A stretch of 64,000 nt of DNA from a virus: positions 62,001 to 126,000 of the IMG/VR virus record IMGVR_UViG_3300009108_000751; one strand, written 5' to 3'. Below, piece after piece: positions 5,728-63,682 of this stretch. Each line of letters starts with the position of its first letter. Positions within the stretch are counted from its first letter, which is position 1. Made by a program: the position numbers and the translations under genes. Under the pieces are notes generated by a model. It ran no database searches and was not told the origin of the DNA. It saw only the letters and a list, made by a program, of their open reading frames with translations.

Positions 5728-6201
5728 ATGGCAGCTATAAGCTTTAAGAACGTGGGTGAGAAACTCGACGAATATCAAAATCGTCAAGCAGACATTTCAC
5801 CTACACCTATCGGTATTGCTACTCCCTTAAGGCTGAGTACTACGCAGCAAGATATTTTTGAGATGCACTACGCATTACAAGATCAAATTGAGGATAACTT
5901 AAGAAACCTTATTTTGACAAACCACGGAGAAAGATTAGGTTTATATGACTTTGGTGCAAATTTACAACCCATACTTTTTTCTTTAACGGGCGCATCTTTT
6001 GAAACTGAGTGCATGAGAAGAATTAAGGTGGCAGCAAGAAAATATTTGCCCTTTATTGATCTGGAGACTTTTGAGGTAGCAACTGACAATAGATCAACAA
6101 GTAAGAGTCTTGCGACCATAGCAATCACCCTGGCGTATGGAATACCTGCCTTAGGTGTGACTGGTAAAAAGATGAGCGTCTTGCTCACTGCAGGAGGATA
6201 A
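5728..6201 (+). CDS. 25: Baseplate wedge protein, gp25-like
   Basis: This 157-residue protein has the typical GPW/gp25 family core: DQIEDNLRNLILTNHGERL, then YDFGANLQPILFSL, then the helix ending RKYLPFIDLETFEV. gp25 joins the wedge arms and lies next to the tail sheath in the baseplate. A GTG at 5719 could extend it by three residues, but the ACAGGG ribosome-binding sequence (5712-5717) would almost touch that GTG, so the ATG at 5728 is preferred. It is followed after three bases by gp6, the same order as in many contractile tail clusters. Confidence 0.85.
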   Translation: MAAISFKNVGEKLDEYQNRQADISPTPIGIATPLRLSTTQQDIFEMHYALQDQIEDNLRNLILTNHGERLGLYDFGANLQPILFSLTGASFETECMRRIKVAARKYLPFIDLETFEVATDNRSTSKSLATIAITLAYGIPALGVTGKKMSVLLTAGG

Positions 6202-48007: not shown

Positions 48008-51000
48008 ATGACAATAAAAGTAGCACACATAGCTGATGTTCACTTTCGCAGCTTATCAAGGCACCAGGAGTACCGTCAGGTTTTCCAGGATTTTGTGCAG
48101 CAGTGTAGAGAGCTAAAACCTGATGTTATCTACGTCGGCGGTGACATCTATCACACAAAGACACAGGGGATCTCTCCTGAGCTGATCGATGAGCTTACAC
48201 ACTGGATGAGAACGCTGGCAGACACAGCACCTCTTCACATGATCCTCGGCAACCATGATGGAAATCTTGTAAATGCCGGCCGACAGGACGCTATTACGCC
48301 CATCTTTGATGCGCTTGATCACCCCAACGCTTTCCTCTACAAGAAATCAGGCATCTATCCAACTGGAGTCCCAGGCTATAACTGGGCAGTCTTCTCATGC
48401 TTTGACGAAGAGGGGTGGAAAGACGTCAAGCCTGTTGAGGGCGAGATCAATATCGCTACTTTCCACGGCTGTGTGGTAGGATCAAAGACAGACCAGAACT
48501 GGGAGCTTGAGGGCGATGTACCCCTTAATTTCTTTGACCCTTACGACTTTACGATGCTGGGAGATATTCACAAGTTCCAGATCCTAAACGAGGAAAAGAC
48601 CGTTGCTTACCCAGGCTCTACAGTCCAGCAAAATTACGGAGAAGACCCAGATAAAGGATTTCTCTTTTGGGATATCAGGTCACCAGATGATTTCGATCTT
48701 ACGTTCCATCGCCTAACTAATCCACACCCCTTTGTCACAGTGGATTGGCAGGGTAATGTGCGTGACACGCTGCATGAGGCCAAGAAGTATAAGAAGGGTT
48801 CACGCTTCAGATTGCGAACCACTGAGAATATTCCCCAGCTTGAGATCAAACAGATTCACAACGAGTTGAAGGTGGCCAGGAATGCCAAAGAAGTCGTTTG
48901 GAAGTTTGATCAAGGGGTCGATGCAAATGACATTGTAGACAGTGAATCTCTTATCAAAAAGGAAGACCTTCGCGATCCTAAAGTACAGATGAAGATCTTA
49001 GGTGAATACGCGACCATCACTAAGTTTGATGACGAGGAATGGGAAGAGATTGGGAAGCTTGTCGATCGATACATTGCACTTGCCACGCAGGATGAGGATG
49101 TGGCGCGCAACGTGAAGTGGTCTATCAAGGAAATTGAGTTTGACAATGTCTTTTCATATGGCAAAGGTAACAAGATTAACTTTGAGAACTTAAACGGTAT
49201 CACTGGTATTCTTGGCAAGAACCGAAGCGGTAAATCCTCTATCGTAGGTACGCTGGTTTACACCCTTTTCAACTCCACTGATCGAGGTTCCATCAAGAAC
49301 CTTCACGTGATCAACAGCCGAAAAGGTCACTGTAGTGCAAAGATGCGTTTCTCAGCCAACAACAAGCGCTACGTTGTGGAGCGCCAAAGCGTACGCAAAG
49401 AAGACAAGAAAGGCCACGTCTCAGCTATTACATCCCTGAACTTCTACCGCGAGGATCCAATGGGTAACGTGATCGAGGATCTCAATGGTGAGCAGAGAAC
49501 CCAGACTGAGAAGGTTATACGTAAGATGCTAGGAAACTCTGAGGATTTCTTGATCACATCCTTAGCGACTCAAGGAAGCATGAACCACTTTATCTCTCAC
49601 GGTTCATCTCATCGGAAGACTATACTTTCCAAGTTTCTCGATCTTGATATCTTTGAGCGCATGGCTGAGTTTGTCAAGCATGACTCCGCATCGATCCGAG
49701 GCAAGATGAGCAACTATCCTGAGCGTGACTGGAATGCTTCAATTGTTGCCCTTAGGAATAAGCGCCGCAAGTACGATGCACAGATCGAGGAAATAGAGCA
49801 TGAACTGGCATCCTTTCGAGAAGACCAGCAAAAGCTTCAGATACAGCTAAGTAACTTTACCGAGGCTGATCTCGTCGACGAGCGTGAGGTTGATGAACAG
49901 AAGGAAGAGCTTCGAAAGGCAAAAGAAAAGTTCGATGATCTTACAGAGAAATGTGACCAATGCGTCGACGAGATTGAAAAGCTGAGCGAACAGGTTGAGG
50001 CCATCGAGGCAGTCAAGGAGCAGTTTCCTATTTCCGAGATTCGTGAGCAGTACGAGAACCTCCAGGATCTGGAGCGCTCCCTCACTAATCTGGAGCACCA
50101 ACGCGAGGTGGCGCGCCAACTCTACAAGAGCCAAGAACGTTCAGTGAAAATTTTAGATGAGGTCCCTTGCGGCGACCAGTTCCCCACTTGCAAATTCATT
50201 AAAGACTCACATAAGAACAGCAGGCTTATCGCCAAGCAGAAAGAGATTATCGACGAGCAGTCATCTGAACTACGAGCGATTCGACGAGCAGTAAAGAAGT
50301 TGCAGGAGCAGAATCTTAAGGAGAAGATCGACAAGTATGACACGCTTCTTACGAGGCTGTCTGATACGGAAGTAAAGGTATCCCGTAAGCAGTCTGAGTA
50401 CGATCTTTTCTCACGTGACTTGGACGTGGCTGAGGATCATATGCTTCGATGCAAAAAAGTCCTGGTGGAGATGAAGCTTCGTGTTAATACATCAAACCTA
50501 ACTGAGGCAGCTCGTAGAGTTAAGGATATGCTGGGCGACATTAACAGCCAGATTAAAAAGAAGGACGCGCAGCGCATTTCCGCAGCAGAAATGAAAGGAA
50601 ATACCGATAGCCAGATTAAAAAGCTACAGACTGAACGTGATGACTTTGCTGAACTGAGAAAAACCTGGAAGATGTATGACTTTCTCATGAAGTCCTGGTC
50701 CAAGAAGGGTATTCCCACTCAGATTATTCGAACGCAGCTTCCTGTTATCAATACAGAGATCGAGAAGATCTTAAGTAGCGTCACAGACTTTACTGTTAAG
50801 CTTGAAGCTGATAACGACTCTAACGCTCTTGATATTTTCCTAGACTATGGTGACAGCAAGCGTATTATTGAGCTGGCTTCTGGTATGGAAAAGATGATAT
50901 CTTCTCTAGCAATGCGGGTGGCCTTGCTAAATGTTTCATCTCTTCCGAAGACAGATATGCTCATCATCGACGAAGGTTTTGGCACCCTTGATGAGACAAA

Positions 51001-51151
51001 TGTTGAGGCATGTAACAGGCTTTTAACTTCCCTTAAGAAGTGGTTTAAGAATATTCTTGTGATCACTCACGTTGATTCTGTGAAAGATGTCGTCGATCAA
51101 GCGATTGAGATCGGAAACAAAGGTATAGATTCCTATGTCCACCTTGAATAG
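48008..51151 (+). CDS. Fused SbcD-SbcC (Mre11-Rad50, gp47-gp46) protein
   Basis: One uninterrupted frame of 1047 residues holds both subunits of the recombination nuclease complex. Residues 1-340 are a full Mre11/SbcD phosphoesterase: D10-x-H12, D46 in GGDIYH, GNHD (81-84), H153 and GDIH (185-188). Residues 370-1047 are a Rad50/SbcC ATPase: Walker A GKNRSGKSS (403-411), coiled coils around a hook with C721 and C728 (CGDQFPTC, not the usual CxxC), a signature-like LASGMEKMISS near residue 955, and Walker B MLIIDE (984-989) followed by a D-loop. In T4, gp46 and gp47 are separate proteins that resect DNA ends for recombination-dependent replication. Arginines are mostly CGN here, unlike the neighbours. 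No strong ribosome binding site is visible. Confidence 0.85.
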   Translation: MTIKVAHIADVHFRSLSRHQEYRQVFQDFVQQCRELKPDVIYVGGDIYHTKTQGISPELIDELTHWMRTLADTAPLHMILGNHDGNLVNAGRQDAITPIFDALDHPNAFLYKKSGIYPTGVPGYNWAVFSCFDEEGWKDVKPVEGEINIATFHGCVVGSKTDQNWELEGDVPLNFFDPYDFTMLGDIHKFQILNEEKTVAYPGSTVQQNYGEDPDKGFLFWDIRSPDDFDLTFHRLTNPHPFVTVDWQGNVRDTLHEAKKYKKGSRFRLRTTENIPQLEIKQIHNELKVARNAKEVVWKFDQGVDANDIVDSESLIKKEDLRDPKVQMKILGEYATITKFDDEEWEEIGKLVDRYIALATQDEDVARNVKWSIKEIEFDNVFSYGKGNKINFENLNGITGILGKNRSGKSSIVGTLVYTLFNSTDRGSIKNLHVINSRKGHCSAKMRFSANNKRYVVERQSVRKEDKKGHVSAITSLNFYREDPMGNVIEDLNGEQRTQTEKVIRKMLGNSEDFLITSLATQGSMNHFISHGSSHRKTILSKFLDLDIFERMAEFVKHDSASIRGKMSNYPERDWNASIVALRNKRRKYDAQIEEIEHELASFREDQQKLQIQLSNFTEADLVDEREVDEQKEELRKAKEKFDDLTEKCDQCVDEIEKLSEQVEAIEAVKEQFPISEIREQYENLQDLERSLTNLEHQREVARQLYKSQERSVKILDEVPCGDQFPTCKFIKDSHKNSRLIAKQKEIIDEQSSELRAIRRAVKKLQEQNLKEKIDKYDTLLTRLSDTEVKVSRKQSEYDLFSRDLDVAEDHMLRCKKVLVEMKLRVNTSNLTEAARRVKDMLGDINSQIKKKDAQRISAAEMKGNTDSQIKKLQTERDDFAELRKTWKMYDFLMKSWSKKGIPTQIIRTQLPVINTEIEKILSSVTDFTVKLEADNDSNALDIFLDYGDSKRIIELASGMEKMISSLAMRVALLNVSSLPKTDMLIIDEGFGTLDETNVEACNRLLTSLKKWFKNILVITHVDSVKDVVDQAIEIGNKGIDSYVHLE

Positions 51152-51465: not shown

Positions 51466-51891
51466 ATGCTTTCATCCGAAGACGTAAATGCGATTGGTCA
51501 ACTAACCAATACAACCTTTGGTTACTCATCCACAGGTGAGACCACCTATCAAGTCCCGGCAGGTCGTTCAATCACTTGTAAACTAAGTGGTGAATCCGGC
51601 GAAGACCAACTTATAGTTAAGTTCGTCACTGTCATCACTTTGCACGAATCTGAAAGAAACCTTTTAGATCCCAAGAATCCGGCAGCGCAGCAAGCAGAGC
51701 TCGAATCTATCAAGATGATAAAAGACTACACTGACAATCTTAAGAAGTCTTATAAGGATTCGATGGATAAAAGCTTAAAGCTAAAAGAAGTTAGTAGCAC
51801 AGACAGTATTGAGCTGGTAAACTACAATATTTTTAGCCCGGTGAGACAAGTATATTACAGACGAAACACGGTCTATAACGTGAGCATCTAA
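51466..51891 (+). CDS. Unknown protein coupled to the large terminase
   Basis: The 141-residue product starts after GAGG and its stop overlaps the terminase start (TAATG). The first 60 residues look beta-rich (ETTYQVPAGRSITCKLSGESG) with one central strand DQLIVKFVTVITL; the rest has a helical charged segment (YTDNLKKSYKDSMDKSLKLK) and a final strand region VRQVYYRRNTVYNVSI. The small terminase subunit often occupies this place, but such subunits are mainly helical, so I do not call it that. A virion or packaging accessory is possible. Confidence 0.5.
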   Translation: MLSSEDVNAIGQLTNTTFGYSSTGETTYQVPAGRSITCKLSGESGEDQLIVKFVTVITLHESERNLLDPKNPAAQQAELESIKMIKDYTDNLKKSYKDSMDKSLKLKEVSSTDSIELVNYNIFSPVRQVYYRRNTVYNVSI

Positions 51892-53495
51892 TGGCTTCTA
51901 AGCCAGGAAAACAAGCTCAAGTAAAAGAGATCATCCAGTGCGGAAAAGACTCTCTTTACTTCATGCAAAAATATGTAAAGATCCAGCATCCCACTAGAGG
52001 TTTGATCTCATTTGACACGTTTCCATTTCAAGATGACTGTGTCACGCATTTTAACGATAATCGATTTAATGTTATTCTCAAGTCCCGACAGCTAGGGCTC
52101 TCCACCCTGGTCGCGGCCTACGCATTATGGATGGGGATCTTCCAGCGAGACAAGAACATACTGGTTATTGCGACAAAGCTTTCAGTCGCTCAAAACTTCA
52201 TTAGAAAAGTCAAGGTAATGCTGAGGTCACTACCTCCGTGGCTTGTATTACCTGAAGTTACCGCTGATAACAAGCAGACAATAGAGTTTAGTCACGGCTC
52301 AGTTATCAAGGCTATTCCAACCTCCGATGATGCAGGTCGTTCTGAAGCGCTGTCGCTTCTCATTATAGATGAGGCCGCATTCGTTAAGAACTTTGATACG
52401 CTGTGGATGGGTTTATATCCTACCTTATCCACAGGTGGTCGAGCCATTGTTCTCTCTACTCCAAATGGCGTGGGCGGTCAATATCATAAGCTCTACACAG
52501 AAGCAATGTTAGGTGAGAATGAGTTTAACTCAATTAACTTACCCTGGAGCGTGCATCCAGAGAGAGATGAAGAGTGGTTCCAGAGAGAAACTCGCAACAT
52601 GTCAAAGAGGCAGATTGCCCAAGAGCTTCTGTGTGACTTTGTGGCATCAGGTGAGACATTTCTTCAATCTGATCATCTTGAGTGGATTAGGGAGAATATT
52701 CGAGAGCCAAGAGAAAGAAAATTTGAAGACAGGAATTTGTGGGTCTGGGAGAACCCATTGTCTGCTCACAAGTATGTAATGTCTGCAGACGTCTCTCGAG
52801 GAGATGCAAAGGATTATTCCACATGCCACGTCATCGATGTTACGACATCGGAAATTGTCGCTGAATACAAAGGTAAAATACCACCAGATAGATTTGGGGA
52901 AATGCTAGATGATCTAGGGCGTCAGTACAACAATGCTTTACTAGCCCCTGAAAACAACACCTTTGGCTACACTACTGTTATGAAACTAAAAGAGCTTAAT
53001 TACCCTAATCTTTACTATCAAAAAGCCCGCGGTGTTTACCTGGGAAGCTACACACCCCAGTCTGAGAAAGAAGTGGGTGGATTTTCCACGCAAGGACAGT
53101 CTCGAGTTCAAATTATTTCTAAGCTCGAAGAGATGATTCGTAACAAGATGCTTAAGACATACTCACAGCGCCTTTATGATGAGCTTAAAACCTTTGTCTG
53201 GAAAGGGCAAAAACCCCAGGCAATGAAAGGCCAGCACGATGATCTCGTGATGAGCTTAGCGATTGGAACCTGGCTTTTCGATATATACGGAGGCGGTGGC
53301 GGATCGTCTAATTCTGACCTTAACGAAGCAATGATCGCAGCAATGTCTACGGAGTCTCGTCCTGCCTCTGATCTTTCTCAAGATAGAAGAGCACCGTTCC
53401 CTACCAACCCATTCAAACCTGTCCAGCAAGAATCGTGGGAAAAGGGTAATAAAGGGTTTGACCCTAAGAGAGATTATGACTGGTTGCTTAAATAG
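51891..53495 (+). CDS. 17: Terminase large subunit, gp17-like
   Basis: The 534-residue protein has the ATPase and nuclease domains of a packaging motor. The Walker A region is SRQLGLST (65-72), in which the usual lysine is replaced as in many large terminases; R66 may serve. Walker B is LLIIDE (156-161). The C-terminal RNase H-like nuclease has D300 in MSADVSRGD, E354 in APENN and D450-D451 in GQHDDLVMSLA. It cuts and pumps DNA into the prohead through the portal, whose gene follows. The start overlaps the preceding stop. After the stop comes a gap of 73 bases with a candidate promoter. Confidence 0.9.
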   Translation: MASKPGKQAQVKEIIQCGKDSLYFMQKYVKIQHPTRGLISFDTFPFQDDCVTHFNDNRFNVILKSRQLGLSTLVAAYALWMGIFQRDKNILVIATKLSVAQNFIRKVKVMLRSLPPWLVLPEVTADNKQTIEFSHGSVIKAIPTSDDAGRSEALSLLIIDEAAFVKNFDTLWMGLYPTLSTGGRAIVLSTPNGVGGQYHKLYTEAMLGENEFNSINLPWSVHPERDEEWFQRETRNMSKRQIAQELLCDFVASGETFLQSDHLEWIRENIREPRERKFEDRNLWVWENPLSAHKYVMSADVSRGDAKDYSTCHVIDVTTSEIVAEYKGKIPPDRFGEMLDDLGRQYNNALLAPENNTFGYTTVMKLKELNYPNLYYQKARGVYLGSYTPQSEKEVGGFSTQGQSRVQIISKLEEMIRNKMLKTYSQRLYDELKTFVWKGQKPQAMKGQHDDLVMSLAIGTWLFDIYGGGGGSSNSDLNEAMIAAMSTESRPASDLSQDRRAPFPTNPFKPVQQESWEKGNKGFDPKRDYDWLLK

Positions 53496-53568: not shown

Positions 53569-55464
53569 ATGGCCGAAAACGATAATTTCTTTAATAGGCT
53601 CACCAGGCTCTTTAGATCTGGCCCACTTGTTAAGAGAAAAGTTAAAGCAGCGAGAGCTCCCAACATGGGAACTCTTCTCCAGCAGTTTCAAAAATCTCAA
53701 AGTCACGTTTACGCAAACGCGATCAGCGCATACGGGATGTACGATCGCATGTCCCGATATGCCGACTTCCAGGAAATGGAAGCAACTCCTGAGATTGCAT
53801 CTGCTCTCGACATCTATGCAGATGAGTCCGTATCACAAGATGAGGTCGGACGCTGCTTGCACATCTATTCAGAGAATGATAAGATTAGAAGGGTTTTAGA
53901 GGAGCTTTTTTATGACAACCTCAACATCGACTTCAATCTTAATCCATGGGCAAGAAATCTTTGTAAGTACGGGGACTTCTTTCTCTTTCTAGACATATCT
54001 CCAGAATACGGTGTCCTGAACGGGATTCCGATCCCTGTTAATGAGATCGAACGCGAAGAAGGCTTTGATCCTGATGATCCGATGGCAGTGCGATTCCGGT
54101 GGGTAACTCAAGGAAATAAGATTCTTGAGAACTGGCAGATCGCCCACTTTAGGCTTTTAGGTAACGATGCATTTCTCCCCTATGGCTCTTCTGTTATCGA
54201 ACCAGCACGAAGGATTTGGCGACAGCTTATCCTCATTGAAGATGCAATGCTTGTTTATCGCGTGATTCGTTCACCGGAACGACGGGTTTTTAAAATCGAT
54301 GTCGGAAACGTTCCACCAGAAGAAGTTCAAAACTACATGCAGCAGGCGAAGTCTGCGCTTAGAAGCTCGCAAGTTGTAGACAAAACTACGGGACGTGTCG
54401 ATCTTCGCTACAACCCGCTTTCAGTTGATGAAGATTATTTCCTTCCCGTCCGCGGCCAAGCAGATGGTACTGCTATCGATACACTTGCAGGCGGGCAGAA
54501 CACCACAGCTATTGAGGATGTTGAGTACATCCAAAAGAAACTTTTTGCGGCACTTAAGGTTCCAAAGGCTTACTTGGGCTACGACGAAATGCTTAGCTCT
54601 AAAGCAACATTGGCCCAAGAAGATATTCGTTTCTCTAGGACGATCAACAAGGTCCAAAGGGTCATGATATCAGAGCTTAACAAGATCGCAGCTGTTCATC
54701 TTTATGCTAACGGCTTTGACGGAGAAGATCTTGTAGACTTCACTCTTAAGCTTTCAAATCCATCAACCATAGCACAACAACAAAAGCTTGAGCTCTTTAG
54801 AACAAAGTTCGAAATCGCCGGCCAATCACCTGAAGGTATGCTTTCTAGAGACTTCTTGAGAAAACGTGTTCTCGGTCTTACAAACGAAGAAATCAAGATG
54901 ATTGAAGAGCAAAAAGAAGAAGATAAGATGCGTGATCTGGAGGTTGAAGCTATTACGCTTCCTGAGACTGAAGGTGAAGCTGCATCCCCTGCAGGCATTG
55001 ACTTAGGCGAGGAAGAACCTGCCCCACCCGAAGAAGAAGATCTTGAGACAGCACAAGAGAAAAAGGGTGATGACTTACTTTTAGGGACTGATGATGTTCC
55101 CCAAGAGGAAGCAGAAGAAAAGCCGGCAAAATCCGAAAAGCCTGTAAAAGCAAGCTCAAATGTAAAGGGGCCCAACAAGCCACGATCAGCTAACAAAGCG
55201 TTTGATGGAAGAGTTTATCAACTGAGGCCGCAAGGTTCCCCGGGATACACAAGCTCTAAGAAAGAAAGATACATTAATAACAGTCTTGGTGACAAGGAAG
55301 CTATTAGCCCAGACTTAAGTGTTAGGTTCGAAAGTCAAGTGAATAGACAAAACCAGATGTCTGCACAGCTCAAACAGACTTTAAAAAGCCTTGAGAAAAG
55401 CATAGGTAATATAGGAAAGTCCTCTGCTTTGCTCGTTGAGGGAGATAATGATGACGAGACATAA
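53569..55464 (+). CDS. 20: Portal protein, gp20-like
   Basis: The 631-residue protein is the vertex ring through which DNA enters and leaves. The N-terminal region YRMSRYADFQEMEATPEIA-like (MYDRMSRYADFQEMEATPEI, then ALDIYADES) and the middle WRQLILIEDAMLVYRV with RSPERRVFKIDVGN are typical of T4-type portals. The stretch AALKVPKAYLGYDE is the usual loop before the C-terminal stem helices. The last 170 residues are an acidic, low-complexity extension (EEEPAPPEEEDLETAQE), longer than in T4 gp20 (524 residues in total), that may bind core proteins. The next gene starts inside its end. Confidence 0.9.
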   Translation: MAENDNFFNRLTRLFRSGPLVKRKVKAARAPNMGTLLQQFQKSQSHVYANAISAYGMYDRMSRYADFQEMEATPEIASALDIYADESVSQDEVGRCLHIYSENDKIRRVLEELFYDNLNIDFNLNPWARNLCKYGDFFLFLDISPEYGVLNGIPIPVNEIEREEGFDPDDPMAVRFRWVTQGNKILENWQIAHFRLLGNDAFLPYGSSVIEPARRIWRQLILIEDAMLVYRVIRSPERRVFKIDVGNVPPEEVQNYMQQAKSALRSSQVVDKTTGRVDLRYNPLSVDEDYFLPVRGQADGTAIDTLAGGQNTTAIEDVEYIQKKLFAALKVPKAYLGYDEMLSSKATLAQEDIRFSRTINKVQRVMISELNKIAAVHLYANGFDGEDLVDFTLKLSNPSTIAQQQKLELFRTKFEIAGQSPEGMLSRDFLRKRVLGLTNEEIKMIEEQKEEDKMRDLEVEAITLPETEGEAASPAGIDLGEEEPAPPEEEDLETAQEKKGDDLLLGTDDVPQEEAEEKPAKSEKPVKASSNVKGPNKPRSANKAFDGRVYQLRPQGSPGYTSSKKERYINNSLGDKEAISPDLSVRFESQVNRQNQMSAQLKQTLKSLEKSIGNIGKSSALLVEGDNDDET

Positions 55465-56284
55465 TAAAAAAAGAAACTCTGGCCTTCTTTACGAGTTTTT
55501 AGTAAGAAAGATTTCTCGATCTTTAGTGGAGGGCGACAATAGTAGCGCCAACATTTCTAAGAATATTCTAAAAAAATATTTTTCTACTGGGACCGAAGTT
55601 CACAAAGAGTACAGGCTTATCAATGCTCTTGTTAATGTTCCCGTAGGAAGTGAGGCTGTTGCACAAGCAGTTTTACAGGAAGCAAGAAATGCATCACGCA
55701 GGTTCGACTCTAAGATGCTGAGGACTGAGAAAGATAATTTGATAAGAGAGATAAATCATGAATTTGGGCCTGAGGCAGTCTATGCTGAATCAGTTCCAGA
55801 CTATAAGTCATATGCTACGGCTTCTACTCTTGTGAAGTACTGGAGAGAAGAAAAGGAACTTGATCTTAGTACAGTCGTTAGATACGAAAAAGTTCTTATC
55901 GAATCTTTGGCACGCCCCCTTGAAGAAAAAATAATAGAGGAAGCAGATCCTCAAGTTGACAATCTCGTAGTCAAAGTTGCGACTGATAAGATGCAAAGAA
56001 AATATGAGACAAGACTGAATAAAACGCAATCAGATCTTATCAATCTTTACGCAGTTGAAAACAAGCACGATGCCACGAGAGAGATGATTGAGGGCATCGT
56101 AGAAAGCACGCTGGCAAATTTAAAAGCTTACGGTGCATCCCAAAATGAAAGTTTTGCAAGCAAGGTTCAAAGCGTATCTGAAAGCATTAGAAGCCTCAAT
56201 ATCGAAGAAGTCAATGATACCCTTATTGCTAAAACCCTGGAGATCGTTGAGCTAAATGAAGAATTACAGGGAGCTATAAAATGA
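55448..56284 (+). CDS. Probable head-core protein between portal and protease
   Basis: The 278-residue product begins at ATGATG after GAGGGAG and overlaps the portal end by 17 bases. An earlier TTG (55436) is in frame but lies before the ribosome binding site. The protein is highly charged and looks almost fully helical (SGLLYEFLVRKISRSLVEGD, later VNDTLIAKTLEIVELNEEL). In T4 the core proteins gp67 and gp68 lie between portal and protease, so a prohead core role is an inference from position and composition. I cannot match it to either. It overlaps the protease start by ATGA. Confidence 0.6.
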   Translation: MMTRHNKKRNSGLLYEFLVRKISRSLVEGDNSSANISKNILKKYFSTGTEVHKEYRLINALVNVPVGSEAVAQAVLQEARNASRRFDSKMLRTEKDNLIREINHEFGPEAVYAESVPDYKSYATASTLVKYWREEKELDLSTVVRYEKVLIESLARPLEEKIIEEADPQVDNLVVKVATDKMQRKYETRLNKTQSDLINLYAVENKHDATREMIEGIVESTLANLKAYGASQNESFASKVQSVSESIRSLNIEEVNDTLIAKTLEIVELNEELQGAIK

Positions 56285-56904
56285 AATTATTGACCGAGTG
56301 CATGACATTTGAATATGATTCGAATCTTATTAAAGAGCAGGCGCAAACTGAGGATGGTAGATTTCTTATGAAGGGAGTTTTGCAGAAAGCAAATACTCTT
56401 AACCAGAATGGGCGAGTTTATCCCCTTGATATTCTCCGGAGAGAGGTGCAGAACTACCAGCGATTTATCGATGAAGGTAGAGCTCTTGGCGAACTAGATC
56501 ACCCGGATACTTCTGTTGTTGAACTAAAGAATGTTTCTCATGTAATTCGAGAAGCACATATGGATGGCGACATCTGCTACGGAACTCTTGAGGTCCTAGA
56601 TACACCGAACGGGCAAATATTAAAGAGCTTGGTTGAGAGTGGTATCAAGATAGGCATTTCTTCTCGCGGCGTAGGCTCTACGCGAAGCGAAGGCGGCCAC
56701 CAAGTTGTTCAAGATGATTTCCAATTAATTTGCTGGGATATCGTGTCAGAGCCTTCAACACCAGGTGCCTTCGTAATGAAGGAAGGTAGAGACCTAACAC
56801 CGGATGAGATCGCCCAGGTTCAAGCTTATTTTGGTCCAGGAGACAAGATCAACCGGATCATGAATTCAATTTTAGAATGGAATGGAGACGCAAATGCCTC
56901 TTGA
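56281..56904 (+). CDS. 21: Prohead core protease, gp21-like
   Basis: The 207-residue protein has the serine protease signature of the prohead protease family: H74 in GELDHPD and S127-S128 in GISSRG, with the supporting segment QNGRVYPLDILRREV and the end DIVSEPSTPGAFV. It matures the prohead by cutting the scaffold and the capsid N-terminus, in T4 after L/I-x-E. Matching L-A-E-G sites are visible near the N-termini of the small protein at 57349 and the capsid protein. The start overlaps the upstream gene (ATGA). Confidence 0.85.
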   Translation: MKLLTECMTFEYDSNLIKEQAQTEDGRFLMKGVLQKANTLNQNGRVYPLDILRREVQNYQRFIDEGRALGELDHPDTSVVELKNVSHVIREAHMDGDICYGTLEVLDTPNGQILKSLVESGIKIGISSRGVGSTRSEGGHQVVQDDFQLICWDIVSEPSTPGAFVMKEGRDLTPDEIAQVQAYFGPGDKINRIMNSILEWNGDANAS

Positions 56905-57349
56905 TTACCCAAACTGGGGCGCAGGTGATGTCCCATCTTACCAACTCTCAGGTGTGCCATTTGTTACATCATCAAATGGTGCTGAAGTGAGCACAACCCC
57001 AGTCAAGGTACAATTACCTGGCGTCTCAAGATTTCTAGTTATTAAAGAAACCGCAGGCCAGGATCTGAGAGTAGGCTTTTCCGTTGCTGGTGTCAACGGC
57101 ACCGGAGGCGTTTCTGGCTCGGTTCCTACGAATCCAGCTGGTGGTGAGTCTGCTGCTGACAGAAGAAACTATTTTGTCGTAGAAGCTAATACTACTTCTC
57201 CCCGACTAGAGATTAGATGCAAGACCCTTTACTTCCGTCGCGACGGTTCCTCCGACGCCGGATTTTCCATCATCGCAGGAATCACACCAATAGGTACCAG
57301 CCAGTTCCCGCCTCTGACAGGATCCAGCGGATATGACGGGATCGGATAA
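56894..57349 (+). CDS. Unknown beta-rich head protein
   Basis: The start is the ATG at 56894, seven bases after GGAG; the in-frame ATG at 56882 has no such site. The 151-residue product begins PLDYPNWGAGDVPSYQ and is beta-rich with Gly, Ser and Thr (FLVIKETAGQDLRVGFSV, later LEIRCKTLYFRRDG). This looks like a jelly-roll or Ig-like fold. It overlaps the protease end and the next start (TAATG). A capsid decoration or vertex protein is a guess from position and fold. Confidence 0.55.
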   Translation: MPLDYPNWGAGDVPSYQLSGVPFVTSSNGAEVSTTPVKVQLPGVSRFLVIKETAGQDLRVGFSVAGVNGTGGVSGSVPTNPAGGESAADRRNYFVVEANTTSPRLEIRCKTLYFRRDGSSDAGFSIIAGITPIGTSQFPPLTGSSGYDGIG

Positions 57350-57765
57350 TGAAATTGACCCGAGCTAAGCTTAAAGATCTTATAAAAGAATGCATTGTTG
57401 AAGTGCTAGCTGAAGGGCTTGGTGGAGCAACCTTGACCGAGGCTTCTGTGAAAGCAAAGCCGGCCAGAAATCATAAGAAAACACACACGCATACTCGGCG
57501 CAAGGCTTTGGATTCTATAAAATTCGACCAGCGAGTAAATGAGGCTGCATCATCAATGACCGCAGATCCCGTAATGCAATCTATCTTTTCAGATACAGCA
57601 AAAACAACCCTTCAAGACCAGCTCCAGCACACGCATAATTCTCCTTCCATCCCCCCGGGCGCTGATGCTGCAACACGTGCTGCAGCCCTTTCCACGCCCG
57701 AGGATCTTTTTGAAGGATCTTCTAATTGGGCTACCCTGGCATTTAATGACGGCATCAACAAATAA
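57349..57765 (+). CDS. Small prohead core candidate with gp21-type cleavage site
   Basis: The 138-residue protein starts with a basic amphipathic helix (LTRAKLKDLIKECIVEVLAEG). It includes L20-A21-E22-G23, which fits the L/I-x-E rule for T4 gp21 cutting. The middle has a basic, histidine-rich stretch (HKKTHTHTRRK), and the end is SSNWATLAFNDGINK. The scaffold protein ends in a comparable NRWALLAGIK. Such shared ends can mark proteins that dock on the same capsid or core site. I infer a minor core or internal protein. The function is not proven by any family match. Confidence 0.55.
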   Translation: MKLTRAKLKDLIKECIVEVLAEGLGGATLTEASVKAKPARNHKKTHTHTRRKALDSIKFDQRVNEAASSMTADPVMQSIFSDTAKTTLQDQLQHTHNSPSIPPGADAATRAAALSTPEDLFEGSSNWATLAFNDGINK

Positions 57766-57785
57766 TTTCAAGTTTGTTTTGAGAG

Positions 57786-57803
57786 TATATTTACTACCGT
57801 TAG
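57786..57803 (+). promoter_or_regulatory. Candidate late promoter (TATATTTACTACCGTTAG)
   Basis: This matches the 28477 element at 17 of 18 bases and contains the -10-like TATATTTA. The gene start (57813) is only 27 bases from its first base, and TAGGAGA at its end also serves as ribosome binding site. Confidence 0.5.
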
Positions 57804-57812
57804 GAGAATCCT

Positions 57813-58310
57813 ATGGCACGCAATAAATTTTCTCACAATAGCATGGGGAACCTTATAGAGGTTCGAAACCCTTCTAATCCCGGTCTTCCCGGAAATAGAA
57901 ATGACGCTACGCTTAAAGAAGCTTTCGGATCTTCTCCGATCTATTCTCCTGGTGCAGACAATACTGTTAAGAAGCAGTTTGAAAATCTAGTAATGCAAGG
58001 TGTCCTTGTAGGGGAGGGCCGCAAAGGATCTGGTTTTGGATTTTCCATTTTTAATAGAGACTTTGTCGATGCTCCTGAAGTTGAGGGAGTTGAGAAAGAT
58101 AACAGTGGAGCCGCCGTGGCAAGTCCATACGTTCCTAATGTTGCATCACCAAACTCTTCGGGACAAGTTGAAAAAGTTGTTGTTCCAAACCGACCTGCAG
58201 GCGGAGATTTTGTAGGTGACAGCTTAAGAGATCCAAAAAGCACCTCGGCAGATATTTCTAACGTGAAGATAGGTTCTTATGGTCTTGGCGTAAGCTCAAA
58301 CCAGAGTTAA
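57813..58310 (+). CDS. Unknown head-cluster protein (165 residues)
   Basis: The ATG follows TAGGAGA by five bases. The product is rich in Asn, Ser, Gly and Pro and has a middle segment EGRKGSGFGFSIFNRDFVDAP. The rest (NVASPNSSGQVEKVV, FVGDSLRDPKSTSAD) looks loosely folded. I do not recognise a family. It has its own candidate promoter and stands in the head-assembly block, so a minor head protein is the simplest inference. Confidence 0.55.
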   Translation: MARNKFSHNSMGNLIEVRNPSNPGLPGNRNDATLKEAFGSSPIYSPGADNTVKKQFENLVMQGVLVGEGRKGSGFGFSIFNRDFVDAPEVEGVEKDNSGAAVASPYVPNVASPNSSGQVEKVVVPNRPAGGDFVGDSLRDPKSTSADISNVKIGSYGLGVSSNQS

Positions 58311-58319
58311 TATTTTTTA

Positions 58320-58883
58320 ATGTCAGCACTTTATGAAGCATACGTAAGCTTTCCGCGCTATGACGCACGAAGCGGGCTTGGTTATGGTGCTGCAGATTCT
58401 GCTGTAAAACCAGGCCTATCAGTCGGAAAACCGATGTCAATGCCTGGGCTCTATCCCTACAAAGAGCCTCCCACAGACGTCGATGACGACGGAGAAGACC
58501 TTCCCGCCAAGGACAAAAAGAAGGTAATTAATAAAGTGGGTGGCATTACTCGTATTAACGATCCTTTTTCTAGTAACTGGGTAGATAGAGGCGCTTTTGT
58601 TAACTGGGCAACTCGCCTTGATTTATACGAAGCAAGAAACGCAGTAGACTTAGAGGACGTTGTAAGAGGACTCGAGGGAAGTAGTTCAACAGGTGGCATG
58701 AGTCAATTTGTTGCTATGGGAAATGGGGCGGGAATTTATAAGACCCGGTATGGAAAAACAATAGGAATGGATATAGGCGGCAGGCCACAATCATATTCTG
58801 CGACAAAGACAACAAAGAAGATACCTCCATCTTTATCAGACTTTATCAAAGACTATCTAAGGGATGAAGATGAAGAGATCTAA
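58320..58883 (+). CDS. Unknown head-cluster protein (187 residues)
   Basis: The ATG lies nine bases after the preceding stop without a visible Shine-Dalgarno sequence. The product begins SALYEAYVSFPRYDARSG, has an acidic-basic linker (DDDGEDLPAKDKKK), a globular middle with WVDRGAFVNWATRLDLYEAR and an acidic end (FIKDYLRDEDEEI). No family is recognised. The end of the gene overlaps the start region of the bS21-like gene, so the two are co-expressed. Confidence 0.55.
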   Translation: MSALYEAYVSFPRYDARSGLGYGAADSAVKPGLSVGKPMSMPGLYPYKEPPTDVDDDGEDLPAKDKKKVINKVGGITRINDPFSSNWVDRGAFVNWATRLDLYEARNAVDLEDVVRGLEGSSSTGGMSQFVAMGNGAGIYKTRYGKTIGMDIGGRPQSYSATKTTKKIPPSLSDFIKDYLRDEDEEI

Positions 58884-59097
58884 GAAGTTTCCCGCAGAAT
58901 ATGGTGTCGTTGTAAGGTCTAGACCAAGAGAAAGTACCGACAAATTAATTGCCCGTTTTAAGAGGATGTATAAGCGCTCTGGGTTACAAACTGAAGTAAG
59001 AGAAACGTATATGCAGCGCTTTATGTCAAGATCAGAGAAAAAGAGAATGAAAAAAAATAGAGCAAAGAGAAGGGCTCTGAAAAACAGCAAAGGGTGA
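58870..59097 (+). CDS. Ribosomal protein bS21-like protein
   Basis: The start at 58870 is six bases after AAGGG; an earlier ATG at 58864 touches that site. The 75-residue product has the bS21 pattern: strand VVVRSRPRESTDKLIARFKR, helix YKRSGLQTEVRE, then the basic helix RSEKKRMKKNRAKRRALK. bS21 sits at the mRNA exit of the small ribosomal subunit and helps initiation. Phage bS21 genes are known from marine phages and may take over host ribosomes for phage mRNA. A basic scaffold or core protein of T4 gp68 type is the main alternative, because the gene stands between head genes. The match is by pattern only. Confidence 0.65.
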   Translation: MKRSKKFPAEYGVVVRSRPRESTDKLIARFKRMYKRSGLQTEVRETYMQRFMSRSEKKRMKKNRAKRRALKNSKG

Positions 59098-59144: not shown

Positions 59145-60566
59145 ATGACCAGTAATCTCTATGAAGAAGCCATTGCAGATGCTCGAAAGTTACGTGAGAT
59201 AGCTGAGCAAAATGCTAAAAATGCGATCATTGAATCGATAACACCAAAAATTCGTGACTTAATAGAATCCCAAATAATTGGGGACGAAGTGGATTTTGAC
59301 GAATCTGATATCATAGAAGAAACAGCTGCTCAGGCTTCTCAAGATGATGATCAAGAATTCGATATGACTCCCGAAGCTGCGCAAGAGCTCAGGACCATGC
59401 TTGAAAACGATTCGCCTGAAGAGCAGGACGCTCCACCCGATCCCAATAGCGAAGAAGCTTCAATAGTTTCTTCTGCCGCTTATATCAAAGAATGCAATGA
59501 GTACATCGAGACAGTCCGCGAAGTACTCGAAAAAGTCAGGGGAACTAACCCGGCTGAACTTAATGAACAGGACTTACAAAAATATTTGGCTCTGGTCGCA
59601 ATATCAGACCGAGCAGTTAATAAATTATCCGAAATGATGGCAACCGCCGAAGGTATGCAAATCTTCGAAGGTGTCATCCAGAACTCTCAAGATCAGATTC
59701 ACAACTTTAAAAAGGAGATAAAAGAAATGAAGAGATCACTAAGGGACCTATTGTCCGAGGAAGTTATAACCATAGAGCTGGATCTCGGTGAGGATGCCGT
59801 AGTGGATTCTGAAGAAATCTCAGTTAAGGTTAAAGAAGAAGAGCCCCCACTTATCGACGCCGAAGCCGGCGAAGACGAAGAAGAGGGCGACGAAGATGTC
59901 GATGTCGAAGAAGTCGATGTCGATGTCGATGTCGATGTCGAAGAAGACAAAGTCAAAGTCGGAGAGCTTGAAGAGATGATCCTTGAGCTTGAAGAGGAAG
60001 AGGAAGAGGAAGAAGACATGGAAGAAGATGACATGATGGAAGGCCTCGACGACGACACTGTTCTTGAAATTGACGAAAACATGCTGCGCGAGGAGCTCGC
60101 TAAGATTATGCAAGAAAGCGAAGAGTCCGCAGAAGAAGTTATTGAAGAAGCCTCGGAAGAGGAAGAAGTATTAGAAGAAACGGCCGAGTCAGTCGCCACC
60201 GAGCAAAATGACGAACTCCAAGCCGAGATAGAGAGCTATCAGAGCGCAGTTGCTGACCTCCAGTCACAACTCGCCGAGATGAGCTTGTTTAACGCGAAGC
60301 TGCTCTACACCAATAAGCTGCTAATGAATAGCGATCTCAGCCAGACCCAACGGGCACAGGCCATAGAAACGCTCGATGACGCCGCAAGCTTGCGAGAGGT
60401 GAAGCTTCTATTTAAGACTCTTACAGAGTCATTTAGTAAGCGCGCAGAGGATAAAACATCTTCTCGCAATATCGGCGGCGCAAGTCGTCCAACCAAGTCT
60501 GCATCAATGAACTTGAATGAGTCCACCGAGGCTAATCGATGGGCATTGCTGGCAGGCATAAAGTAA
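59145..60566 (+). CDS. 22: Prohead scaffold (core) protein, gp22-like
   Basis: The start is ATG 59145 (TSNLYEEAIADARKLREIAE); a GTG at 59136 is also in frame. The 473-residue protein is strongly acidic and helical. Residues about 220-350 are almost all Glu, Asp and Val, with a VDVDVDVDVE run. The conserved part is C-terminal: LFNAKLLYTNKLLMNSDLSQ, then IETLDDAASLREVKLLF, typical of gp22-type scaffolds in marine T4-like phages. It ends NRWALLAGIK, comparable with the small protein at 57349. It is longer than T4 gp22 (269 residues) through the acidic inserts. It guides capsid assembly and is removed by the protease. Confidence 0.85.
   Translation: MTSNLYEEAIADARKLREIAEQNAKNAIIESITPKIRDLIESQIIGDEVDFDESDIIEETAAQASQDDDQEFDMTPEAAQELRTMLENDSPEEQDAPPDPNSEEASIVSSAAYIKECNEYIETVREVLEKVRGTNPAELNEQDLQKYLALVAISDRAVNKLSEMMATAEGMQIFEGVIQNSQDQIHNFKKEIKEMKRSLRDLLSEEVITIELDLGEDAVVDSEEISVKVKEEEPPLIDAEAGEDEEEGDEDVDVEEVDVDVDVDVEEDKVKVGELEEMILELEEEEEEEEDMEEDDMMEGLDDDTVLEIDENMLREELAKIMQESEESAEEVIEEASEEEEVLEETAESVATEQNDELQAEIESYQSAVADLQSQLAEMSLFNAKLLYTNKLLMNSDLSQTQRAQAIETLDDAASLREVKLLFKTLTESFSKRAEDKTSSRNIGGASRPTKSASMNLNESTEANRWALLAGIK
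59913..59940 (+). repeat. GTCGAT hexamer tandem repeat in the scaffold gene
   Basis: About 4.7 perfect in-frame copies of GTCGAT encode alternating Val and Asp. A unit of six bases keeps the frame, so copy number can vary without breaking the gene. Confidence 0.85.
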
Positions 60567-60597: not shown

Positions 60598-62514
60598 ATG
60601 TCTAAGTTTTCACTCGAAACGCTAGCCGAAGGAATTCGGTCGCGTCACATGGGTGAGGAGAACTCCCGCTTGGTCGAAAAGTGGTCTCGCACCGGTCTGC
60701 TCCGCGGCCTGGAATCAACAAAGCGCGAAAACATGGCGCGCCTTCTTGAGAACCAGACTGCAGAGCTTCTTCGTGAGCAAAGCACAATCGGCACAGGCGG
60801 CGGAGCTGGCACCGCTTCTGGTGACCTTCGCGGTTTCTCCAATATCGCCTTTCCAATCGTTCGTCGTGTATTCGGCGGACTTGTCGCAAATGAGCTGGTA
60901 TCCATCCAGCCCATGAGCTTGCCTTCTGGCCTGCTCTTTTATCTTGACTACACCTACGGTTCTAACGTTGGTGGTGACGCATCTCTCACAACGGGCGATG
61001 CAGGAACCTACGACAAAGAAACGTATCAGCGTGGTCAATCCATCTATAACAACCCAACTGGCAAGGGCGTACGCTCTGGTTCATTGGCAACAGGCGGTCA
61101 GTATGACTTGGTCGGTGCAACTTACTCTAAGGTGCACAGCTCCTCGATCTCACCAACCGTTATGTTTGCTGGTGCACACGGTGCAAACTCATCCTTGACA
61201 TCCGGTTCGTTGTGCCATGCCACAGGTTCAGATGCTAAGTTGCTCCAATTCGATCCTCAAGTTCTTGACTTGATCGAAAACGATCCCGGTCTTGACGGTG
61301 ATGGACGCTTCTGCATCGTCATTGTGGACGTCACTGATGCACCCTTTAACAATGTCGATCTTACGAACGCCAAGGACATTTCCTTGTTCTCAGCAGTTCC
61401 TGAGGTTCGTACAGGTGTTAAAGAGCTTGGTGCTAGCTTCCAGGGCGGCAAAGGTATTCTTAACCTCCGTCGCTTGAACCAGCTTGGTACGTTTGCGAAC
61501 AACAAGTTTACCGCAGATCCCATGGTAACAAGAAGCACATCAAATGCTGCTCTCTTGACAGTTATGTCTGGTAACTTCAGCGGTAAAATTGATGCCGGTG
61601 ATGCTGCTACAGCATACCTCTCAGCATCATATGCCATTGGCCCAACATTGAATGTAGAAGACGGTTCTGGTTCTACCCTTACCATTCCTTCATTCGAATC
61701 TGATTTCGGTACTACACCTTCACCAGTGATCCCTGAAATCGACATTAAGGTTGAGTCCATCGCAGTTACAGCTGCTACACGCAAGCTGAGAGCTCGTTGG
61801 TCGCCAGAATTGGCACAGGACCTTAACGCATACCACAGCCTTGACGCTGAGGTTGAGTTGACACAGATCCTTTCTGAGCAAGTTGCTCTTGAAATCGATC
61901 GTGAAATCCTGAATGACCTGCTTAGCGAAGCCCAGGGCGCAAACCTTTACTGGTCACGTGCTCCAGGCAAGTTCCTGAACAAGGAAACAGGCGCCGAAGT
62001 TAAGTTGAATGACAGCTTATCTGCAGGTCCTCGTTTCACAGGCACAGTTCGCGAATGGTACGAGACCCTGGTCGAGTCCGTTATCGATGTTGCTAACACC
62101 ATCCACCGCAAGACACTCCGTGGTTCCGCGAACTTCGTGGTCACCTCTCCGGATGTCTGCACAATGTTCGAAGCTTCAGTGATGTATCGCCCAAGCCTCA
62201 GCATTGACAGCGAAGGTCAGGTTTCCTCCCCATTCAGCCTCGGTGCTGAAAAGGTTGGTACCTTGAGCAACCGCTTTACGGTCTACAAGGACCCATACTT
62301 CCCTCGCAACAAGATTCTTGTTGGTTATAAGGGTGGTAGCTACCTTGAGACAGGATACGTTTATGCTCCGTATGTTCCGCTGATCGTCACACCAACGATC
62401 TTCGCGCCAGAAGACTTCACCCCTCGTAAGGGCGTGATGACTCGCTACGGCAAGAAGATGGTTCGCGCTGACTTCTACGGTACCGTTACGGTTGCTGACT
62501 TGAACGTCATCTAA
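60598..62514 (+). CDS. 23: Major capsid protein, gp23-like
   Basis: The 638-residue protein has the HK97-type T4 gp23 layout. The N-terminal region (residues 1-60) is helical with L9-A10-E11-G12 and L58-R59-E60 in sequence positions that fit gp21 cleavage; T4 gp23 is cut after residue 65, so E60 is the best counterpart. The mature part starts near GTGGGAGTASGDLRGF and continues with NIAFPIVRRVFGGLVANELVSIQPM and LLFYLDYTYG, typical of gp23. The C-terminal NKILVGYKGGSYLETGYVYA is also conserved. Codon use is strongly shifted to CGN arginines (only two AGA seen). GGGAG precedes the ATG, and a GAAA-loop terminator follows. Confidence 0.95.
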   Translation: MSKFSLETLAEGIRSRHMGEENSRLVEKWSRTGLLRGLESTKRENMARLLENQTAELLREQSTIGTGGGAGTASGDLRGFSNIAFPIVRRVFGGLVANELVSIQPMSLPSGLLFYLDYTYGSNVGGDASLTTGDAGTYDKETYQRGQSIYNNPTGKGVRSGSLATGGQYDLVGATYSKVHSSSISPTVMFAGAHGANSSLTSGSLCHATGSDAKLLQFDPQVLDLIENDPGLDGDGRFCIVIVDVTDAPFNNVDLTNAKDISLFSAVPEVRTGVKELGASFQGGKGILNLRRLNQLGTFANNKFTADPMVTRSTSNAALLTVMSGNFSGKIDAGDAATAYLSASYAIGPTLNVEDGSGSTLTIPSFESDFGTTPSPVIPEIDIKVESIAVTAATRKLRARWSPELAQDLNAYHSLDAEVELTQILSEQVALEIDREILNDLLSEAQGANLYWSRAPGKFLNKETGAEVKLNDSLSAGPRFTGTVREWYETLVESVIDVANTIHRKTLRGSANFVVTSPDVCTMFEASVMYRPSLSIDSEGQVSSPFSLGAEKVGTLSNRFTVYKDPYFPRNKILVGYKGGSYLETGYVYAPYVPLIVTPTIFAPEDFTPRKGVMTRYGKKMVRADFYGTVTVADLNVI

Positions 62515-62606: not shown

Positions 62607-62617
62607 CATATCTAATA
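62607..62617 (+). promoter_or_regulatory. Candidate late promoter of the first small virion gene
   Basis: CATATCTAATA fits the YATATYTA pattern and opens the duplicated leader. It lies 86 bases before the ATG, longer than for most other candidates, which leaves a leader of about 75 bases. Confidence 0.45.
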
Positions 62618-62705
62618 GTAGGCCCGTCACATTGCATAAGGGTGAACTCGCCACCGTGCCGGAATCATGCGAACAAAATAAAGGAGAAAATTATGCCAAA
62701 GGTTA
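62607..62705 (+). repeat. 99-base promoter-leader repeat, first copy
   Basis: This block is identical base for base to 63150-63248. It starts with the promoter-like CATATCTAATA, includes the whole leader with AAAGGAG and ends 13 bases inside the coding region, after the codons for MPKV. The 543-base spacing equals the distance between the two start codons. GGTG and CACC (62641-62655) can form a small hairpin. Confidence 0.95.
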
Positions 62706-63061
62706 TTATTTCTGATGATAAAGGTCTGAACCAAACCGCAGGTTCGGGGCTGGAGTCTAGGAGCGCTCACTATAGTAGCTACGGGACTACTACAGCTTTA
62801 GCAACAGGTTCTTTCCCGCTTCTTCCTGCGGGAATAGTAAACACTGTTGACAGCACTAACAACGCACATGGTGTTAGATTGCCCAACGCTGCAGGAGCAG
62901 GTCAGATCATGATCGTTAGAAATGTAGACAGTGCTCAGGACTGCGTTATTAGAAATCAAGCTGAGACAGGTGCCATCCTTGTCACGCTCGGCGAAGGTAA
63001 GACTGCTCTTTTCGTAAGTACAGCTTCTGGAAATAACTGGTCTGGAAGTCAGCTCGACTAA
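62693..63061 (+). CDS. Small virion (decoration-like) protein, MPKV paralogue 1
   Basis: The ATG at 62693 follows AAAGGAG at seven bases. An in-frame GTG at 62642 is rejected because the whole upstream stretch is the untranslated leader repeated before the next gene. The 122-residue product shares its start, MPKVxxSDxKGLxQT, with the next gene product and then differs: it has a beta-rich body (GVRLPNAAGAGQIMIVRNVD, GKTALFVSTASGNNW). Such small Gly/Ala/Ser-rich proteins placed after the capsid gene commonly decorate the head surface. The location and role are inferences. Confidence 0.65.
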   Translation: MPKVIISDDKGLNQTAGSGLESRSAHYSSYGTTTALATGSFPLLPAGIVNTVDSTNNAHGVRLPNAAGAGQIMIVRNVDSAQDCVIRNQAETGAILVTLGEGKTALFVSTASGNNWSGSQLD

Positions 63062-63149: not shown

Positions 63150-63160
63150 CATATCTAATA
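63150..63160 (+). promoter_or_regulatory. Candidate late promoter of the second small virion gene
   Basis: CATATCTAATA opens the second copy of the leader, 86 bases before the ATG at 63236, and lies 34 bases after the previous T-run. Confidence 0.45.
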
Positions 63161-63248
63161 GTAGGCCCGTCACATTGCATAAGGGTGAACTCGCCACCGT
63201 GCCGGAATCATGCGAACAAAATAAAGGAGAAAATTATGCCAAAGGTTA
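63150..63248 (+). repeat. 99-base promoter-leader repeat, second copy
   Basis: This copy is identical to 62607-62705. The sequences just outside the block differ at both ends at once (A against C before, T against C after). The sharp edges indicate a recent copy event or strong conservation of this segment only. Confidence 0.95.
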
Positions 63249-63682
63249 CGTATTCAGATTCGAAGGGGCTCGTCCAGACGTCAGGTGCTGGGATGGCTCT
63301 AACCGGCTTCATGCATGGTCAAAAATGCCCACAGAAGTCGGTAACAAGCACAGACACGCTTACTGTTGAAGACAGTGGCAAGTTAATTACCCTGACGGGA
63401 TCAGCATTTACTTTGTCGCTGCCCAGTGTCTCAGCGGCAAAAGGATGCCACTATACGATCGTTGCTGGTCAAGCTGCGAATTATGTCCTTTCTGAGCTCG
63501 TCGGAACTGACGACAACGTTTTGACGATGGTAAGCGTAAATGCGTCTGCTACTGAAAGAGATCACGCTTTTACCACAGCTACTCTGAGTGGCGGAGCTAT
63601 CGGAGACAGGTTTTACGCCGTCTCTAACGGAACTTGGTGGGTCATCACGGCCTTCGCCAATGCTGCCGTAGCCGCCGCATAA
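63236..63682 (+). CDS. Small virion (decoration-like) protein, MPKV paralogue 2
   Basis: The 148-residue product starts with MPKVTYSDSKGLVQTSGAG, close to the start of the preceding paralogue (MPKVIISDDKGLNQTAGSG), and then has another body: DTLTVEDSGKLITLTGSAF, LSLPSVSAAKGCHYTIVAGQ and a C-terminal NGTWWVITAFANAAVAAA. The shared first 20 residues suggest one docking peptide carrying two different outer domains. It has the same leader and ribosome binding site as its neighbour and its own terminator, so it is expected to be abundant. Head decoration is inferred. Confidence 0.65.
   Translation: MPKVTYSDSKGLVQTSGAGMALTGFMHGQKCPQKSVTSTDTLTVEDSGKLITLTGSAFTLSLPSVSAAKGCHYTIVAGQAANYVLSELVGTDDNVLTMVSVNASATERDHAFTTATLSGGAIGDRFYAVSNGTWWVITAFANAAVAAA

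Follow-up and report, generated by a model that had tools for sequence, protein, structure and literature searches.

A gene resembling that of ribosomal protein bS21 lies among the head genes of a virus in the stretch of 64,000 nucleotides analysed here (the window), raising the question of whether it is a true member of the bS21 family and, if so, what such a protein would do in a head operon. bS21 is a small, late-joining protein of the 30S subunit that is located next to the anti-Shine-Dalgarno sequence, at the channel through which mRNA exits.

Identification of a divergent bS21 homologue

A preliminary description of this DNA had proposed that positions 58870..59097 (+ strand) encode a basic protein of 75 residues with the layout of bS21. 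The ORF encodes the product as described, and 27 of its 75 residues are lysine or arginine. An in-frame ATG at 58864 would yield a protein of 77 aa, but the start at 58870 appears likelier because a Shine-Dalgarno-like TAAGG (58858..58862, + strand), located in the terminal part of the upstream gene, is better placed for it. Throughout the 235,681-base virus record containing the window, this ORF is the sole match to PF01165.

Analysed as a single sequence, the protein has PF01165 as its top Pfam family (E 1.1e-5), and S21 is its top family in both NCBIfam and PHROG (21469). The Pfam score of 25.5 bits and the NCBIfam score of 21.6 are below the curated cut-offs of 27 and 28.95, which therefore do not by themselves assign it to bS21 (PF01165 / TIGR00030); these cut-offs are classifier thresholds and not a biological trait. 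Relatives were collected from viral contigs, with the bS21 protein and the neighbouring protease as queries and subsequent iteration of a profile, which resulted in 37 distinct proteins. A profile of 36 phage homologues compared with the PDB matched bS21 and nothing else (28 of 28 matches at E up to 0.01, the best at 6.4e-11). PF01165 was matched by 26 of the 36 family members (best E 2.1e-16), and three relatives occupying the same slot (L059, L061, and L073) exceeded the Pfam cut-off. With a profile built from distant relatives only, leaving out the window's own clade, the window protein scored 43 bits, compared to 14 bits for the best of 20,000 composition shuffles and -2.5 for the reversed sequence. 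Though sub-threshold on its own, the protein is filed here as bS21-like because the profile and the relatives point there, and at the level of sequence these comparisons confirm the ORF as a divergent member of the bS21 family. The layout seen earlier is thus real. According to the preliminary description, it would have been contradicted by a profile search that placed the protein with gp68-type core proteins and not with bS21, and the search gave the reverse result.

Structure prediction, also proposed earlier, agreed with this assignment. The AlphaFold2 model (pLDDT 80) contains three helices (25-39, 41-51, and 56-76) and has the architecture of bS21, that is, an extended N-terminus followed by helices of which the last is strongly basic. 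Foldseek against the PDB returned bS21 chains as the top matches, but with weak E-values (0.7 and above), which is unremarkable for a helical protein of small size and extended shape; compared to bS21 of P. aeruginosa, the model gave a Z of 6.3 and 2.4 A over 61 residues. The predicted fold therefore matches bS21.

The preliminary description had further expected that comparison with bacterial bS21 would help to name the host, and on this point no host was obtained. The comparison with bacterial genomes yielded no cellular relative of the window protein, and tblastn of the protein against the phage collection gave no match. A second phage group (L007-L014) carries, ahead of the scaffold gene and around position 6000, a canonical bS21, and its nearest cellular relatives in the scan were mostly bS21 of Omnitrophota; since this group is only distantly related to the window, the match is uninformative for the host of the latter. 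The rpsU matches to Acinetobacter phage MD-2021a were left out, because the record under that name, CAKLQH020000004.1 (L126), resembles bacterial chromosome and contains purF, pyrD, and gcp as well as rpsU.

Organization of the head operon

The gene is placed, as previously claimed, among head genes and just before the scaffold. On one strand (+) and in a T4-like order, the cluster comprises the large terminase (51891..53495), a gp20-type portal (53569..55464), a gene of 282 aa, a gp21-type prohead protease (56281..56904), four small genes of 155, 138, 165, and 187 aa, the bS21-like gene, a putative gp22-type prohead scaffold (59145..60566), and a gp23-type major capsid protein (60598..62514; PF07068, E 6.5e-75), with terminase, portal, and protease assigned by Pfam and PHROG. 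The scaffold gene has no confident family match and is labelled gp22 by its position, its acidity (136 D+E of 473 residues), and its richness in [IL]xE (25 sites). The gene of 187 aa (58320..58883, +), likewise without a confident family match, ends 14 nt inside the bS21-like gene (20 nt if the start is 58864), and this overlap of the start with the preceding stop suggests translational coupling of the two genes.

The genes of 138, 165, and 187 aa (57349-58883) lack confident Pfam or PHROG matches, yet recur in related loci. The 138-aa protein contains five [IL]xE sites compared to 0.9 expected, a hint that it may be a core protein processed by the protease.

Presence, absence, and inheritance among related phages

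In all fetched relatives that have the bS21 gene, it has the sense orientation and immediately precedes the scaffold, and in most of them it overlaps the preceding stop by 1 to 35 nt, with starts chosen mechanically. Among loci with a recognised scaffold, the slot was filled in 52 and empty in 29, counts that include repeated fetches and near-copies, the 52 corresponding to 37 distinct proteins. Where the slot was empty, the preceding gene and the scaffold were 9-83 nt apart. This clean absence from 29 related head operons indicates that the bS21 gene is accessory to head assembly, and a core head protein common to all relatives is thereby ruled out. Elsewhere in four slot-empty records of 106 to 278 kb (G005, G008, G009, and G010), which may be fragments, no PF01165 match was found by a search of limited sensitivity that also missed the divergent copy of L030.

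A portal and protease tree of 62 rows (36 with and 26 without bS21) required four changes in a clustered pattern and does not separate gain from loss. Across 31 distinct loci, bS21 distances followed portal distances closely (Mantel r 0.92), and none of 5000 permutations reached a value as high, so within this lineage the gene has been inherited along with the head genes and not newly acquired. Compared to the two nearest distinct relatives, dN/dS of the bS21 gene was 0.11 and 0.14, more distant pairs being saturated at silent sites, and these values show it to be under purifying selection.

Proposed role and alternative explanations

It has been reported that bS21 is loosely bound and exchangeable on the 30S subunit near the anti-Shine-Dalgarno, and that in Francisella the choice of bS21 homologue alters the proteome after transcription (PMC9578407). 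The bS21 of phage HTVC008M was detected in ribosome fractions of E. coli (PMC6375957), and in lake phages bS21 transcripts accompany late structural transcripts (PMC9723584). In the window no T4-type late promoter TATAAATA was found; from the position in the operon, late synthesis of its bS21 can fairly be assumed. Taking the operon position together with the findings from Francisella, HTVC008M, and the lake phages, we infer that the bS21 homologue is probably synthesized alongside the head proteins and incorporated into 30S subunits of the host, where it biases initiation. It would be translated together with the head genes, would replace or supplement host bS21 on the 30S subunit while head proteins are synthesized, and initiation would thereby be biased toward phage messages or away from host messages.

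The preliminary description had suggested that the bias would favour late messages with strong AAGGAG sites. Shine-Dalgarno sites are indeed used in the window, since 15 of 40 starts have at least five matching bases as compared to 81 of 1124 ATGs at large. However, in related phages without bS21 the corresponding head genes have Shine-Dalgarno sequences of similar strength (per-locus mean 4.62 with and 4.43 without bS21, p 0.16; p 0.75 for the major capsid protein gene), and in both groups Shine-Dalgarno use is well above background. Single genes differ in both directions, the portal site being stronger and the protease site weaker in phages with bS21, by statistics that ignore phylogeny. A preference of bS21 for strong Shine-Dalgarno sites is therefore not supported. 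A narrower version of the proposal, which we consider doubtful, is that the bS21 copy would be an operon-coupled translation factor dedicated to head proteins, made in step with the scaffold through the overlap with the preceding gene, and giving late, capsid-specialised ribosomes in a host that uses Shine-Dalgarno sites, by a rule other than Shine-Dalgarno strength.

The biased initiation proposed here has to be weighed against three other explanations. E. coli ribosomes with the bS21 of HTVC008M had lost nearly all activity in vitro, about 5% remaining (PMC6375957), and it follows as an alternative outcome that entry into the ribosome mainly damages or shuts off host translation late in infection, not favouring phage messages. 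We find this unlikely; E. coli was a mismatched host in that experiment, and a late shut-off would also strike capsid synthesis unless phage messages were spared. A protein derived from bS21 could also have lost its ribosomal role and now reside in the prohead as a small basic core or internal protein of the gp67/gp68 type, which would suit the invariable position immediately before the scaffold, the pairing of a strongly basic product with a very acidic neighbour, and the vertical inheritance along with the head genes. Such a prohead role is disfavoured by the clean absences, with the neighbours nearly abutting in operons without the gene, and we regard it as improbable. Moreover, the bS21 profile has been kept, no match of the window protein to a known head-core family was found in Pfam or PHROGs at E up to 1, and it contains none of the [IL]xE motifs cleaved by gp21 that abound in the scaffold, whereas 24 of the 37 family members have at least one.

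The third explanation, a chance resemblance of a short Lys/Arg-rich ORF to bS21, could draw on the single-sequence scores below the curated cut-offs, but is already refuted, its probability being negligible, by the low scores of the shuffles and the exclusive matches of the profile to bS21, as well as by the conservation of the homologues under purifying selection.

Relation to known phage bS21 genes

Phage bS21 genes were widely reported in 2019 (Mizuno et al., 2019, PMC6375957), and in 2022 they were described near protease, portal, terminase, and capsid genes together with a hypothesis of late translation (Chen et al., 2022, PMC9723584). The translation-biasing mechanism is thus not new, having been proposed for phage bS21 in both years. 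Phage bS21 genes beside capsid genes being known already, the window is a solid new example. What it adds is a divergent bS21 lineage missed by curated cut-offs and single-sequence annotation, the exact overlapping slot in a T4-like head operon, the co-divergence of bS21 and portal, and related phages, some having bS21 and some not, that match in the rest of their head operons. Such matched pairs are natural experiments on the effect of phage bS21 on translation.

Bacteroidetes usually lack Shine-Dalgarno sites, and the window differs from the Bacteroidetes phages in using them. In the Bacteroidetes jumbo myophages (PMC9723584), bS21 is likewise surrounded by genes for terminase, portal, prohead protease, and capsid, and a late-stage role was proposed; its gene is encoded on the reverse strand there, however, and does not share one operon with them, whereas the bS21-like gene of the window has the sense orientation, overlaps the gene upstream of it, and is followed immediately by the scaffold. 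The bS21 of Pelagibacter phage HTVC008M belongs to the same family and was found by the phage profile (E 8e-10), but its gene has CobS and Hsp20 genes nearby and is some 16 kb away from that of the capsid. In the T4-like head operon of the cultured Microcystis phage Mel-JY01 (PP395634.1), a sense-strand gene annotated as RpsU lies between those for the prohead protease and the capsid, although two more genes separate it from the gene in the scaffold position and sequence similarity is low. The uncultured huge phage LR756508.1 (484 kb), a record without annotation, has a bS21-like ORF immediately followed by the scaffold and capsid genes, but its product is highly diverged and scores 25 bits against the phage profile.

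Other features of the window

No tRNA genes were found in the window. After the capsid gene, a direct repeat of 147 nt (87%; 62607-62753 and 63150-63296) spans the leader and the initial codons of two small consecutive genes, both without a Pfam match. At 48008-51151, a single ORF of 1047 aa fuses a calcineurin-like phosphoesterase (gp47/Mre11-like) to an SbcC/Rad50-like ATPase (gp46-like); gp46 and gp47 are separate genes in T4.
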